From: Candidatus Saccharimonadota bacterium
GTDB lineage: Bacteria; Patescibacteriota; Saccharimonadia; Saccharimonadales; UBA4665
Length of the DNA: 57,469 bases
Direction of reading: 5' to 3'
Assembly (NCBI GenBank): GCA_029288365.1
Contig: JARIHI010000001.1
Location: 1 to 57,469, forward strand
Part shown: in pieces, positions 52,982 to 56,219 of the stretch
How the letters are laid out: each line of letters starts with the position of its first letter
How positions within the stretch are numbered: the first letter of the stretch is position 1
Translations under genes and position numbers: made by a program
The notes under the pieces: model-generated
What the model saw: the letters and a program-made list of their open reading frames with translations, nothing else
What the model was told of the DNA's origin: nothing
The model's database searches: none

Positions 52982-53437
52982 CTAGGGAGCGACAGGTGCT
53001 GCGGGCCGAAGGAGTTCCTCCGGAATGTGCGACAGGCGCACGTTTCGCACGAACTCGTCCTGCAGGTCCAGCGCTCTCGCACGCAGCTTGGCCAGCTCCG
53101 CGTCGGTCACCTCGTGGCGCTCGCCATTCGGCAAGTCCATGAAGATCGTCCATCTCGGATCCATGCCCCTTCTGCGGGCCACCGGGTAGATGCCGAAGAC
53201 GAGGCAGATGGGGCCGCCGAGGAAGAGGCGCAGTCTGTTGTGCCGGATGTCGTACTCGGCTCGCACCGCGTCTCCGCTGAGACCCATGCTGTAGGCGTTG
53301 TTGAGCTGCCCGATGATCTTGATTCGATCATTTCTGACAGCTGCTTGCGCGGCCTTGTGCTGCTTGTTTCGTCGGATCGCGTAGATCCCGACAGTTGCCA
53401 GGATGAAGAATCCGACAAGCAAAGGAATGGGGGGCAC
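52982..53437 (-). CDS. GC-rich orphan membrane protein
   Basis: A GTG at 53437 is favoured because GGAAGGAG lies six bases before it; a GTG 18 codons upstream (53491) is weaker. The 151 residues include an N-terminal transmembrane helix (about 4-22), a basic turn (RRNKQHK), a second hydrophobic segment (about 70-85, GGPICLVFGIYPV) and a hydrophilic C-terminal half. Codons are G/C-ending, unlike the flanking genes. It has its own promoter (53509-53537) and a structured trailer. The reverse transcriptase gene lies just upstream. Function unknown. Confidence 0.65.
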   Translation of the reverse strand: MPPIPLLVGFFILATVGIYAIRRNKQHKAAQAAVRNDRIKIIGQLNNAYSMGLSGDAVRAEYDIRHNRLRLFLGGPICLVFGIYPVARRRGMDPRWTIFMDLPNGERHEVTDAELAKLRARALDLQDEFVRNVRLSHIPEELLRPAAPVAP

Positions 53438-53508
53438 TGTGTGCTCCTTCCATGTGTAGAGTCGCGACCAGTTAAGGCCACCTTGTGTCACCTCATGGTA
53501 ACTGTACT

Positions 53509-53604: not shown

Positions 53605-54612
53605 TTATACTTCAGAATTTGTATAAGAGGCAGTGTACGCCATGTCACGTTCCCAAGCTATGGTCTGTAACATCTGCGACAGATGATAAGCCTGAGCATG
53701 AGTACAAAGCCCCATATACGAACTAAGGTTATGTTTCGTAACTTTCGAGGTCATACGGCGGCGCGTTTTGGTACGCAACGTCACTACTTGTGGTCGCAGC
53801 ACATACCCAAGAAAATCTACCCCTTGTGGCCAAGAGCGGATTGTTACTTTTTTAGGATGCAAATCAAGCATCAAGTGTGTATGTAAAAATTGCCGAATCG
53901 GTGCAATGAGCGATAAAAGATAGGTTCGATCAGTTGAAACTACAACAAAATCATCACAATAACGAATATACTGTGCTACTCGCAAATGTTGCTTCACAAA
54001 CCAATCTAGTTCATGAAGATAAACATTGGCAAAAAGCTGACTTGTTATGTTACCAAGGGGAATACCCCGCCCTACCTCAGCACCATGACTAAGTAAAACT
54101 GTGCGGACGAGTTCCAGGATCGCCTCATCATGTACGTGGCGAGTTATGAGTCCCATAAGTATCTCGTGATCAATTGAAGCAAAGTACTTGCTGATATCAC
54201 ACTTCAGCACATACACCTTTTGCGTATTATTGCTGCTGGCACGGCGTAAAAACGTTTGTAATCTGTTAACGCCAGCATGAGTGCCCTTATTTTTTCGGCA
54301 CGAATAGCTGTCATAAATAAATCGTTGCTCAAAAGCCGGCTCAATTGCCGACACAATAGCCTGATGCATCAACCGATCTTGTACGGTTGCTTTGTGAATG
54401 CGGCGCTGCTTAGGATCATGAATTGTAAATATCCGATATGGCCCATGTTTGTATTGCCCGGAAAAAACTGCCTTATGCAGCTGCAAAATATTGGTTTCTA
54501 GGTCTTTTTGGTAGGCAATGACGTCCTTCCGTGAACTTTTTCCGCGTGAAAACTTTTGCCAAGCAGCTGTTAATGCTTTAATAGAGGTGATGTCTGTAAT
54601 GTCTGTGAGCAC
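53605..54612 (-). CDS. Reverse transcriptase of a diversity-generating retroelement
   Basis: It copies the template RNA with adenine infidelity. The core has FTIHDPKQRRI, DISKYFASID (motif A), LGNITSQLF near 186-194 and YIRYCDDF near 215-222 (motif C, with YCDD) and the DFLGYVL strand. The [IVL]GxxxSQ form of motif B is a hallmark of DGR reverse transcriptases; retron and group II enzymes have QGxxxSP. A GTG at 54612 gives 335 residues; a TTG at 54660 is an alternative. No maturase, endonuclease or integrase domain is present. The avd ORF abuts its 5' end on the other strand. Confidence 0.93.
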   Translation of the reverse strand: MLTDITDITSIKALTAAWQKFSRGKSSRKDVIAYQKDLETNILQLHKAVFSGQYKHGPYRIFTIHDPKQRRIHKATVQDRLMHQAIVSAIEPAFEQRFIYDSYSCRKNKGTHAGVNRLQTFLRRASSNNTQKVYVLKCDISKYFASIDHEILMGLITRHVHDEAILELVRTVLLSHGAEVGRGIPLGNITSQLFANVYLHELDWFVKQHLRVAQYIRYCDDFVVVSTDRTYLLSLIAPIRQFLHTHLMLDLHPKKVTIRSWPQGVDFLGYVLRPQVVTLRTKTRRRMTSKVTKHNLSSYMGLCTHAQAYHLSQMLQTIAWERDMAYTASYTNSEV

Positions 54613-54615
54613 TTT

Positions 54616-55005
54616 ATGAATTCTACTGTTTCTCCCCGCAAACCCCCAGTTCAATTTCAAAATGTCCCAATTATTGCCTGTACCTATCAGTTATACGGCT
54701 CATTTCATGAAACGCTGGTACTATTTCCGAAGTCCGAGCGATATAGCCTGGGCGCAACCTGTCAAAACGAAATACTTGAGCTTCTCAGGCTATGCTTGCG
54801 TGCTGCCGGAACGAGTCTTCATGAGGATAAAATTGCCTTCCTTAAAGAGGCCTCGGTGCATTTGGATAGTATCCGCCTGCTACTAAATCTCTGTAAAGAT
54901 TGTCGCTGCATCCCCAATCACACCTACCAACAACTTGACTCGACCTGCGCCGAGATCGGACGTATGCTGGGGGGTTGGTTAAAATCTATTTCGAGTAGTC
55001 CCTGA
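54616..55005 (+). CDS. avd: Avd-like DGR accessory protein (four-helix bundle)
   Basis: The 129-residue protein follows the Avd/four-helix-bundle pattern: YQLYGSFHETLVLFPKSERYSLG (about 24-46), a middle helix ending KIAFLKEASVHLDSIRLLLNLCKD (about 73-96), and EIGRMLGGWLKS (about 114-125). In known DGRs the Avd pentamer binds the reverse transcriptase and template RNA. The start at 54616 has no clear ribosome site, and the gene is opposite in strand to the reverse transcriptase, only three bases from its start. The last codons overlap the template repeat. Confidence 0.82.
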   Translation: MNSTVSPRKPPVQFQNVPIIACTYQLYGSFHETLVLFPKSERYSLGATCQNEILELLRLCLRAAGTSLHEDKIAFLKEASVHLDSIRLLLNLCKDCRCIPNHTYQQLDSTCAEIGRMLGGWLKSISSSP

Positions 55006-55108
55006 CCGAGGGCGAACCCCAGTTCGAGTTGGCGTTGCTCGCCCAGTCGGTGTTGAAGTTGAGCTGACGGATGTCGTCCCACCGGTTCAGGTACGGCACG
55101 TTCGACCA
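54994..55108 (-). repeat. DGR template repeat (TR)
   Basis: On the minus strand these 115 bases match the variable repeat at 55467-55581. Twelve positions differ; 11 are adenines in the TR, and the one other is near the 3' edge. Seven AAC codons in the TR reading frame give the usual flexible sites. Its GC-only 3' part (about 21 bases before the edge) would be the homing region. The TR does not encode a full protein: a stop lies 10 codons upstream in the target-like frame. Confidence 0.92.
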
Positions 55109-55340
55109 AACGGTAAAGCGCAATCTGCCATCTTAAGCCACTGCATTCAGACGCATCCGAAAACTGTATTGTTTTTGAGATATAAAATCTCCAGCAGATC
55201 ACACGGAGTACTCGATATTTTGTCTGTTCACTTGCCGTATCCGTAGACACAATAACTCTGTCAGTTTCAAAACACGGGATTGGTGATGTACACCCTTGAG
55301 CGCACATGCAATAACCCATCCAGTTTTTACTATATCAAAA

Positions 55341-55365
55341 CAAAAAACTCCGCGGACACGCGGAG
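55341..55365 (-). terminator. Terminator after the DGR target gene
   Basis: CTCCGCG (55348-55354) pairs with CGCGGAG (55359-55365) over a four-base loop, followed on the minus strand by a T-run (55342-55347). It ends the target transcript before the template region. A GC-rich 7-bp stem with a 4-base loop also resembles the DNA hairpins beside homing sites in other DGRs, although it is about 100 bases from the VR. Confidence 0.7.
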
Positions 55366-55394
55366 GACAAAAAAACAACAATGAGTATTCGGCG

Positions 55395-55445
55395 CCGGAG
55401 GGGAGGTTTCAAGGATTAAGATCCAAGAAAACAACACCCCTCCGG
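55395..55445 (-). other. Long inverted repeat downstream of the VR
   Basis: CCGGAGGGG (55395-55403) pairs with CCCCTCCGG (55437-55445), extended by a further four pairs with one bulge. The 33-base loop holds a 4-bp GGAT/ATCC hairpin. It begins about 20 bases past the end of the VR, on the side where homing needs a stem-loop in some DGRs. A transcript-stabilising role is also possible. Confidence 0.6.
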
Positions 55446-55464
55446 ACACCGAGAACCCGAGTAG

Positions 55465-56112
55465 CTAGTACTCCCTGACCGAGGGCGAACCCCAGCTCGA
55501 GTCGGCGTTGCTCGCCCAGTCGGTGCTGAAGCGGAGCCGACGGATGCCGTCCCACCGGCGCAGGTACGGCACGCGCGACCACGGGGTCGACGAGTCGTCC
55601 CAGTTGAACTGCAGGCCGGAGAGCCAGGGGTAGGGGTTGGTGGACCCGTCCCATCTGGTAGCCCAGTCGGGGAACTGCACGAGGGCCATGAGGACCTCGA
55701 GGCCGGCCAGCTGGACGTTGTCCTCCGTGGCTCTGGCCAGGGCGGACTCGGGCGACAGCCCGTGGTAGGCGTTCGGGTTGAACACCACCCAGCGGACGCC
55801 CGGTCTGTAGTCGTGGCCCGGCGCCAGGCGGAGGTGCTTGGCGTCGCTTCTCAGGCCCTCCCAGCGGCTCTTGTCGTAGCCGGACAGGCCGATCAGGTCC
55901 CAGAGCTCCTCGAGGGTGCGCCGGAGGCCGGACTGCTTGCCCCGCTGCGGGGACAGGTAGGTCGCCAGCAACAGCACCTCGCCCTCGTTGAGGGTGACGT
56001 CCTGCGGGACCTCCGGGAAGTCCGCCTCGGCGAACCCCCAGTCGCGCTCCTGGTTGAGCTGCTTGACGCGCTCGAGCTGCTGGGCCGGCGCGACGTCGGT
56101 GATGATGCTCAC
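55465..56112 (-). CDS. DGR target protein with C-terminal variable region
   Basis: A GTG start at 56112 follows GAAGGAG by eight bases. The 215-residue protein has no signal peptide or membrane helix. The first 140 residues contain EADFPEVP near 28 and EGEVLLLATYLS near 43, then DELW-type helical sequence. The C-terminal part (about 150-215) is Trp/Asp/Asn/Ser-rich and ends in the variable region WSxVPYLxRWDxIRxLxF. Its codons are GC-rich, and it recalls the GC-rich CPR proteins ending in WASPSVRE-type sequence. The diversified residues probably lie on a ligand-binding face. The ligand is unknown. Confidence 0.85.
   Translation of the reverse strand: MSIITDVAPAQQLERVKQLNQERDWGFAEADFPEVPQDVTLNEGEVLLLATYLSPQRGKQSGLRRTLEELWDLIGLSGYDKSRWEGLRSDAKHLRLAPGHDYRPGVRWVVFNPNAYHGLSPESALARATEDNVQLAGLEVLMALVQFPDWATRWDGSTNPYPWLSGLQFNWDDSSTPWSRVPYLRRWDGIRRLRFSTDWASNADSSWGSPSVREY
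55467..55581 (-). repeat. DGR variable repeat (VR)
   Basis: This is the last 115 bases of the target coding region and its stop codon area. Compared with the template, eight codons are changed: three AAC to CGC, two AAC to AGC, one AAC to GAC, GAC to GGC, and CAG to CGG. All other bases are identical except one G/C exchange near the stop. Confidence 0.92.
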
Positions 56113-56164: not shown

Positions 56165-56219
56165 GAGAACAGCGTACTAGCTTTCTACTCAGTAGGCAGC
56201 AAGCTACAACGCTGTTCTC
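56165..56219 (-). promoter_or_regulatory. Leader stem-loop of the DGR target gene
   Basis: An 11-bp perfect outer stem (56165-56175 with 56209-56219) continues as TAGCTT/AAGCTA (56178-56183 with 56201-56206) and an inner CTAC/GTAG (56186-56196). It lies in the leader between promoter and ribosome site. A second hairpin GTGGC/GCCAC follows (56134-56148). The structure could stabilise the mRNA or serve as a binding site. Confidence 0.65.

Follow-up and report, generated by a model that had tools for sequence, protein, structure and literature searches.

A complete diversity-generating retroelement with an antisense avd gene in a Saccharibacteria-type genome, and a probable phase-variable switch in its relatives

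Introduction

The regulation of targeted hypermutation is largely an open matter, above all in uncultivated Patescibacteria, where the reverse transcriptases (RTs) of diversity-generating retroelements (DGRs) are very common. That DGRs are known in this phylum, as the original prediction for the present locus had it, is supported by Roux et al., who defined a DGR clade that is restricted to Patescibacteria and significantly less active (PMC8144416). The locus described here lies within a stretch of 57,469 nucleotides (the window) and raises two questions, namely whether it is a complete DGR and whether its activity is subject to a switch.

The reading preferred here, with a probability of roughly 0.8, is that the window holds a complete chromosomal DGR without a repeat tract, probably locked ON, which belongs to a phase-variable family of DGRs with an antisense avd gene. 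The element is a complete DGR, as originally predicted, in all features open to testing on sequence, its activity in the population being inferred; it has the RT, Avd, the template and variable repeats (TR and VR), a target resembling a lectin, an IMH/IMH* difference and, after the VR, a hairpin. The antisense orientation of avd, its commonness among relatives and the frame-shifting repeats of these relatives go beyond that prediction.

Genomic setting

The source genome is small and of Saccharibacteria type (908 kb, 97% complete) and contains a single RVT_1 gene. A phage origin of the DGR was considered and rejected, and a prophage setting is unlikely, because the viral relatives of the RT reach 43% identity at best and all have avd on the same strand, and because the contig with the DGR also encodes a TIM-PGK-PK glycolysis run. 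The element is thus regarded as chromosomal. An Rfam search gave no relevant match.

Two further features flank the element. The gene at 52982-53491 (minus strand) encodes a 169-amino-acid protein with a membrane-like stretch and no family match, and has a GC content of 0.61 in a contig of 45% GC. Just upstream of the target gene start, at 56165-56219, lies a 22-bp inverted repeat (86% complementary, 11-nt loop), which is possibly a regulatory or terminator element.

The reverse transcriptase and Avd

The RT gene (53605-54660, minus strand) encodes a protein of 351 residues from a TTG start, with the motifs LGNITSQ and YCDD and an RVT_1 match of 6.7e-23. Its best match in the PDB is 8ub7 (E = 7.5e-46), an entry titled "Reverse transcriptase" which is the RT of the BPP-1 DGR, far ahead of the next match, a group II RT at 1.5e-21. 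A group II or retron RT was considered, the top NCBIfam match being a group II RT model that scores 160.6 against a cut-off of 300; the PDB search decides for a DGR RT. The protein also groups with RTs that have adenine-limited TR/VR pairs. A grouping with group II introns or retrons, which would have refuted the original prediction of a DGR-type RT, is therefore not what is found. Motif 4 of RTs of the DGR clade is (I/V/L)GxxxSQ (PMC3521204), with which LGNITSQ agrees.

The gene predicted to be Avd-like (54616-55005, plus strand, 129 residues) is indeed avd, as it matches the Pfam family bAvd with 60.5 bits (cut-off 40) and PHROG 3206, "Avd protein of DGR"; against NCBIfam NF033474 it scores 70.3 bits, below the cut-off of 80. 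It lies antisense to the RT gene, the TR and the target gene. The coding starts of RT and avd overlap head to head over 45 bp (54616-54660), and at the other end the 3'-terminal codons of avd run antisense to the final 12 bases of the TR and to bases 3' of it. With avd antisense, the parts of the DGR need at least two transcripts, and these elements are not expressible from a single one.

The layout is not peculiar to the window and is the usual one among its relatives. The search for relatives covered GTDB genomes as well as 380 genomes from the phylum, and loci were ranked by how closely their RT resembles that of the window; a relative of the RT was found in 109 of the 380. In 129 loci, the window included, avd is antisense to and upstream of the RT gene. 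A tree of 98 RTs requires one switch between antisense and same-strand avd, although the direction of the inversion cannot be given, as the root is unsure and the group II outgroup sequences are long branches. No description of an antisense avd of this kind was found in a literature search, which was not exhaustive.

Another arrangement is seen in seven loci (L131-L136 and L142), where avd is antisense but downstream of the RT gene, tail to tail, and the usual repeat tract is absent in or near RT; in two of them (L132 and L133), runs of C9-C10 lie around +1280 to +1310.

The template and variable repeats

The TR (54994-55108) and the VR (55467-55581), both on the minus strand and 115 nt long, align without gaps at the positions originally predicted. 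They differ at 12 positions, 11 of which are TR adenines, and the base-by-base alignment bears out this earlier count; with 25 adenines in the TR on the minus strand, the hypergeometric P for at least 11 of 12 differences at A is 6.6e-8. The 11 differences comprise eight A>G and three A>C, each at the first or second position of a target codon. The absence of A>T was considered as a special feature and rejected, since A>T is the rarest change in the antisense-avd relatives as well (39/252). The twelfth difference, predicted to adjoin the homing edge, is a C>G at 55471, close to the end of the VR. The 3' boundary of the VR is two bases short of the end of the target open reading frame (55465-56112, minus strand), in agreement with the predicted place of the VR at the 3' end of this gene.

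Among the relatives of the RT, 980 of 1,021 TR/VR differences are at A, which is supporting evidence only, as the search for these pairs favoured A mismatches. A search with the TR across the 908-kb genome returned only the TR and the VR, with no second VR and no further targets. The parts of the element, its adenine specificity and the antisense layout are thus observed, while mutagenic activity is inferred from the intact parts and the adenine-limited differences.

The target gene

The target gene encodes 215 residues from a GTG start and by sequence has no match in Pfam, NCBIfam, PHROG or the PDB. Its AF2 model (mean pLDDT 91) matches C-type lectin folds over residues 36-215, with a best Z of 7.9 followed by many lectins at 5-6.8. 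These scores are moderate but consistent, and with moderate confidence the model indicates a C-type-lectin-like fold, the last strands of which are encoded by the VR. Homologous targets are present in relatives. The GC content of the gene is 0.70 in a contig of 45% GC, a feature that was considered as peculiar to the window and rejected, because a GC-rich target is common to the whole family. In one relative, L184 (genome G301), the target homologue is on a different contig from the RT gene, avd and the tract, and this DGR may serve a distant target.

Hairpins and a probable spacer RNA stem

The C>G difference is one stem base of a short hairpin, GAGTA-CTAGC-TACTC (55459-55473, minus strand), at the end of the VR and the stop codon of the target; as the difference falls in the stem, the TR is unable to form this hairpin. 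The same difference occurs at the same place in L011 and L013, as would be expected of IMH versus IMH*, a function that is inferred from the position alone. Beyond the VR lies a nested hairpin (55390-55451, minus strand) with an outer stem of TCCGGAGGGG and CCCCTCCGG, a CTT/TTG internal loop and an inner stem GGAT-CTTA-ATCC. Its DNA fold has a z of -4.85, and the closest relatives have comparable hairpins after the VR, with stems that are changed yet complementary.

In BPP-1 the RNA 3' of the TR is a spacer that binds RT-Avd and primes cDNA synthesis (reviewed in PMC12875486). In the window a probable spacer RNA stem is predicted at 54912-54984 (minus strand), antisense to the 3' end of avd. 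In nine relatives of Saccharibacteria type 90.8% of its pair cells are standard, a value not reached by any of 500 shuffles, and 2 of the 500 shuffles reach its covariation score. The stem is graded no higher than probable because the RNAalifold covariation term is about zero and part of the sequence is constrained by the coding of avd. Synonymous identity in the last third of avd is 0.53, versus 0.38 and 0.29 elsewhere, which together with the conserved stem indicates that a single stretch of DNA probably serves twice, its two strands encoding the C-terminus of Avd and the spacer RNA, respectively.

A separate 9-bp covarying hairpin is found in an Uhrbacteria group (L016-L019, L037, L186, L187 and L021) between the end of the TR and the stop codon of avd; it is either a spacer RNA element or an avd terminator.

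It could be argued that the DGR of the window has decayed and is inactive. Of the 25 TR adenines 11 differ, there are no population data, and Roux et al. report below-average activity for the Patescibacteria clade (PMC8144416). However, the frames of RT, avd and target are all intact, and the sole TR/VR difference outside adenines is the IMH-type C>G that is common to relatives, which makes decay unlikely.

Repeat tracts in related loci

In 97 of the 129 antisense-avd loci a simple repeat is found, either at the 5' end of the avd coding sequence or within the RT gene. In 80 of 129 loci the repeat is located where avd and RT start together, within the 100 bp that precede the RT domain, and 19 of 128 have it at +500 to +600 from the start of this domain, while every other 100-bp bin within 1.4 kb holds no more than one repeat across the 129 loci. 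The tracts at the shared start include G8-G12, (CT)n, (GA)n, (GT)n and (CTGTC)n, and among those within the RT gene, at roughly +500 to +600, are (AGCC)n and (CAGT)n. Runs of eight or more G occur in 57 of 129 start windows versus none of 1,138 control windows. The repeat units are of 1, 2, 4 or 5 nt only, never 3 or 6. The two sites are nearly exclusive of each other, with both occupied in two loci, one in 95 and neither in 32 (P = 8e-7).

The tracts are reflected in the reading frames. The avd gene is in frame with an ATG in 25 of 80 loci with a 5' tract versus 45 of 49 without (P = 3e-12). In the loci with a 5' tract, the avd frame is open through the tract in 79 of 80; an ATG precedes the tract in some frame in 77 of 80 and in the current frame in 24 of 80, about one third, and an ATG follows the tract in only two. 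Some start codon for avd, including TTG or GTG after the tract, is available in 55 of 80, and because of these later TTG and GTG starts the OFF state may be leaky. The RT has its own ATG after the 5' tract in 37 of 80 loci, which suggests that the gene gated first by this tract is avd. For the internal tract it is the RT that is affected, being in one frame in 11 of 27 loci with the tract versus 193 of 212 without (P = 6e-9). All start codons in this analysis are predicted.

These counts treat related loci as independent and their P values are consequently too strong. A tree of 161 RTs answers part of this concern: the place or presence of the tract changes at least 33 times, and the tract has therefore been lost and regained repeatedly. 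The contigs L020 and L058 are 99.6% identical over 7 kb and differ inside the RT gene by G9 versus G11 and one substitution, the RT being intact in L020 and split in L058. This is the sole near-identical pair with a change in tract length, it concerns an element with same-strand avd, and assembly error is not excluded. More generally, the loci come from assemblies of uncultured organisms, in which homopolymer lengths may be wrong, although tracts of di- to pentanucleotides are less affected.

Tract position, unit length, mutual exclusivity, the frames, the L020/L058 pair and the tree are together characteristic of phase variation through slipped-strand mispairing. What is observed are the places of the repeats, the lengths of their units and the frames; slippage itself, and that an OFF frame stops retrohoming, are inferred. 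One rival explanation is that of an ordinary constitutive DGR, in which avd became antisense by a neutral rearrangement and the repeats of the relatives are incidental. It is in line with the intact, tractless copy of the window and with the 32 of 129 loci that have no tract, but the position of the tracts, their frame-shifting units, mutual exclusion and frame statistics are far from chance, and so many gains and losses on the tree also speak against it; this explanation is considered quite unlikely.

The tracts might instead serve programmed transcriptional or ribosomal slippage that keeps Avd or RT at a steady low level, with no heritable switch in the DNA. Poly-G and poly-GA could slip during expression, and many out-of-phase avd and RT frames are still open and conserved. 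On the other hand, tetra- and pentanucleotide tracts are poor sites for ribosome slippage, tract length differs between L020 and L058, with the reservation given above, and (CT)n tracts of 15, 29 and 47 nt are found among Saccharibacteria. Little weight is accordingly given to slippage during expression.

Phase variation at the DNA level thus remains the preferred reading. It is considered likely that Patescibacteria DGRs are phase-variable through a tract in avd or RT, with part of the cells ON, and that the element of the window has lost the switch and is locked ON. In the proposed mechanism a TR-bearing RNA, transcribed in the direction of the target and RT genes, would fold 3' of the TR; RT and Avd would make adenine-mutagenised cDNA, which would replace the VR at the end of the lectin-fold target gene. 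In most relatives, a frame-shifting repeat, either early in the avd coding sequence or within RT, would make one of these proteins phase-variable, and only cells whose tract has the right length would have retrohoming ON.

Tracts are also found outside the antisense-avd group, with G or GA tracts at +330 to +400 in ten same-strand-avd loci. In eight loci with same-strand avd (L055, L058, L059, L062, L063, L068, L075 and L079) the RT is split over two frames at +356 to +390, in each case with the break at a (GA)n or poly-G tract, which is likely an RT switch outside the antisense-avd group.

Long G runs were also counted genome-wide. By hand count, thirty genomes, mostly picked for having a G tract in their DGR, contain 83 separate G9 runs, 28 of them at the DGR tract site, and this is the sole G9 run in ten genomes. 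The 0.7 Mb of genome G301 hold about 22 distinct G9 runs, far above most relatives, and this genome is possibly rich in phase-variable genes.

The tract site in the window

The DGR of the window has no frame-shifting repeat in avd or RT, its longest G run being of 5 with no other repeat, and a genome-wide count found no G9 run in its genome. The site that holds the tract in relatives corresponds to avd codons 7-11 (54634-54647, plus strand), where the sequence CCCCGCAAACCCCC is interrupted and in frame, and avd is in frame from its ATG, with the RT intact. The closest relatives have (CT)n of 15, 29 and 47 nt (L011, L012 and L013, respectively) or G8-G11 (L014, L015, L183 and L184). In the tree of 161 RTs the window nests in a supported set of eight loci, and as the other seven have a tract, its loss in the window is the simplest reading. 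Judged from these frames and this placement, it is probable that the element is locked ON. The proposed switch is thus a finding on the family, reached from the window locus, and does not describe the window locus itself.

If this is true, an on/off switch in a mutator would form two layers of contingency, in which slippage picks the cells that diversify and the DGR decides how. Such a switch could explain the lower activity of the Patescibacteria DGR clade (PMC8144416). It is also a warning that automated gene calling will leave many such RTs and avds labelled as broken, or will miss them.

Comparison with known systems

A non-exhaustive literature search for DGRs together with phase variation, slipped-strand, homopolymer or frameshift found no phase-variable DGR. 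Length-variable repeats have been discussed in another CPR genome, for a different gene (PMC6851277).

The DGR of Bordetella phage BPP-1 (mtd-avd-TR-brt) likewise has an RT, Avd, a TR and a VR at the end of a lectin-fold target, with adenine-limited differences and a hairpin after the VR. In BPP-1, however, all parts are on one strand and avd precedes the TR, while in the window avd is on the plus strand, between the TR and the RT gene and overlapping both, with RT, TR and target on the minus strand; the BPP-1 arrangement, with avd on the strand of the TR and RT, is therefore not met. BPP-1 is moreover a phage, and the DGR of the window is in a cellular genome.

DGR clade 2 of Roux et al. (2021, PMC8144416) shares with the window the Patescibacteria host, the cellular setting and a target without a transmembrane domain, and membership of the window's DGR in this clade would rest on this likeness only. 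The main text of that paper does not mention frameshifts or avd, and for clade 2 neither the antisense avd nor the repeat tracts of the window's family are mentioned there.

The "inverted" group 4 DGRs of Shewanella, Vibrio and Photobacterium (Schillinger et al. 2012) also have their parts on two strands, and in Shewanella baltica an avd-like gene is antisense to RT, as in the window. In group 4, however, RT is opposite to the TR, VR and target (PMC3521204), an arrangement that the window does not have, as all four are on the minus strand and only avd is opposite.

The closest parallel to the tracts is with the simple-sequence contingency loci of Neisseria, Haemophilus and Campylobacter, which, like the relatives of the window, have coding tracts of G8-G12 and of di-, tetra- and pentanucleotides with frame-shifting units. 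The copy in the window is without such a tract. Known contingency loci mostly gate surface structures, whereas the tract-bearing DGR relatives would gate the machinery of targeted hypermutation.
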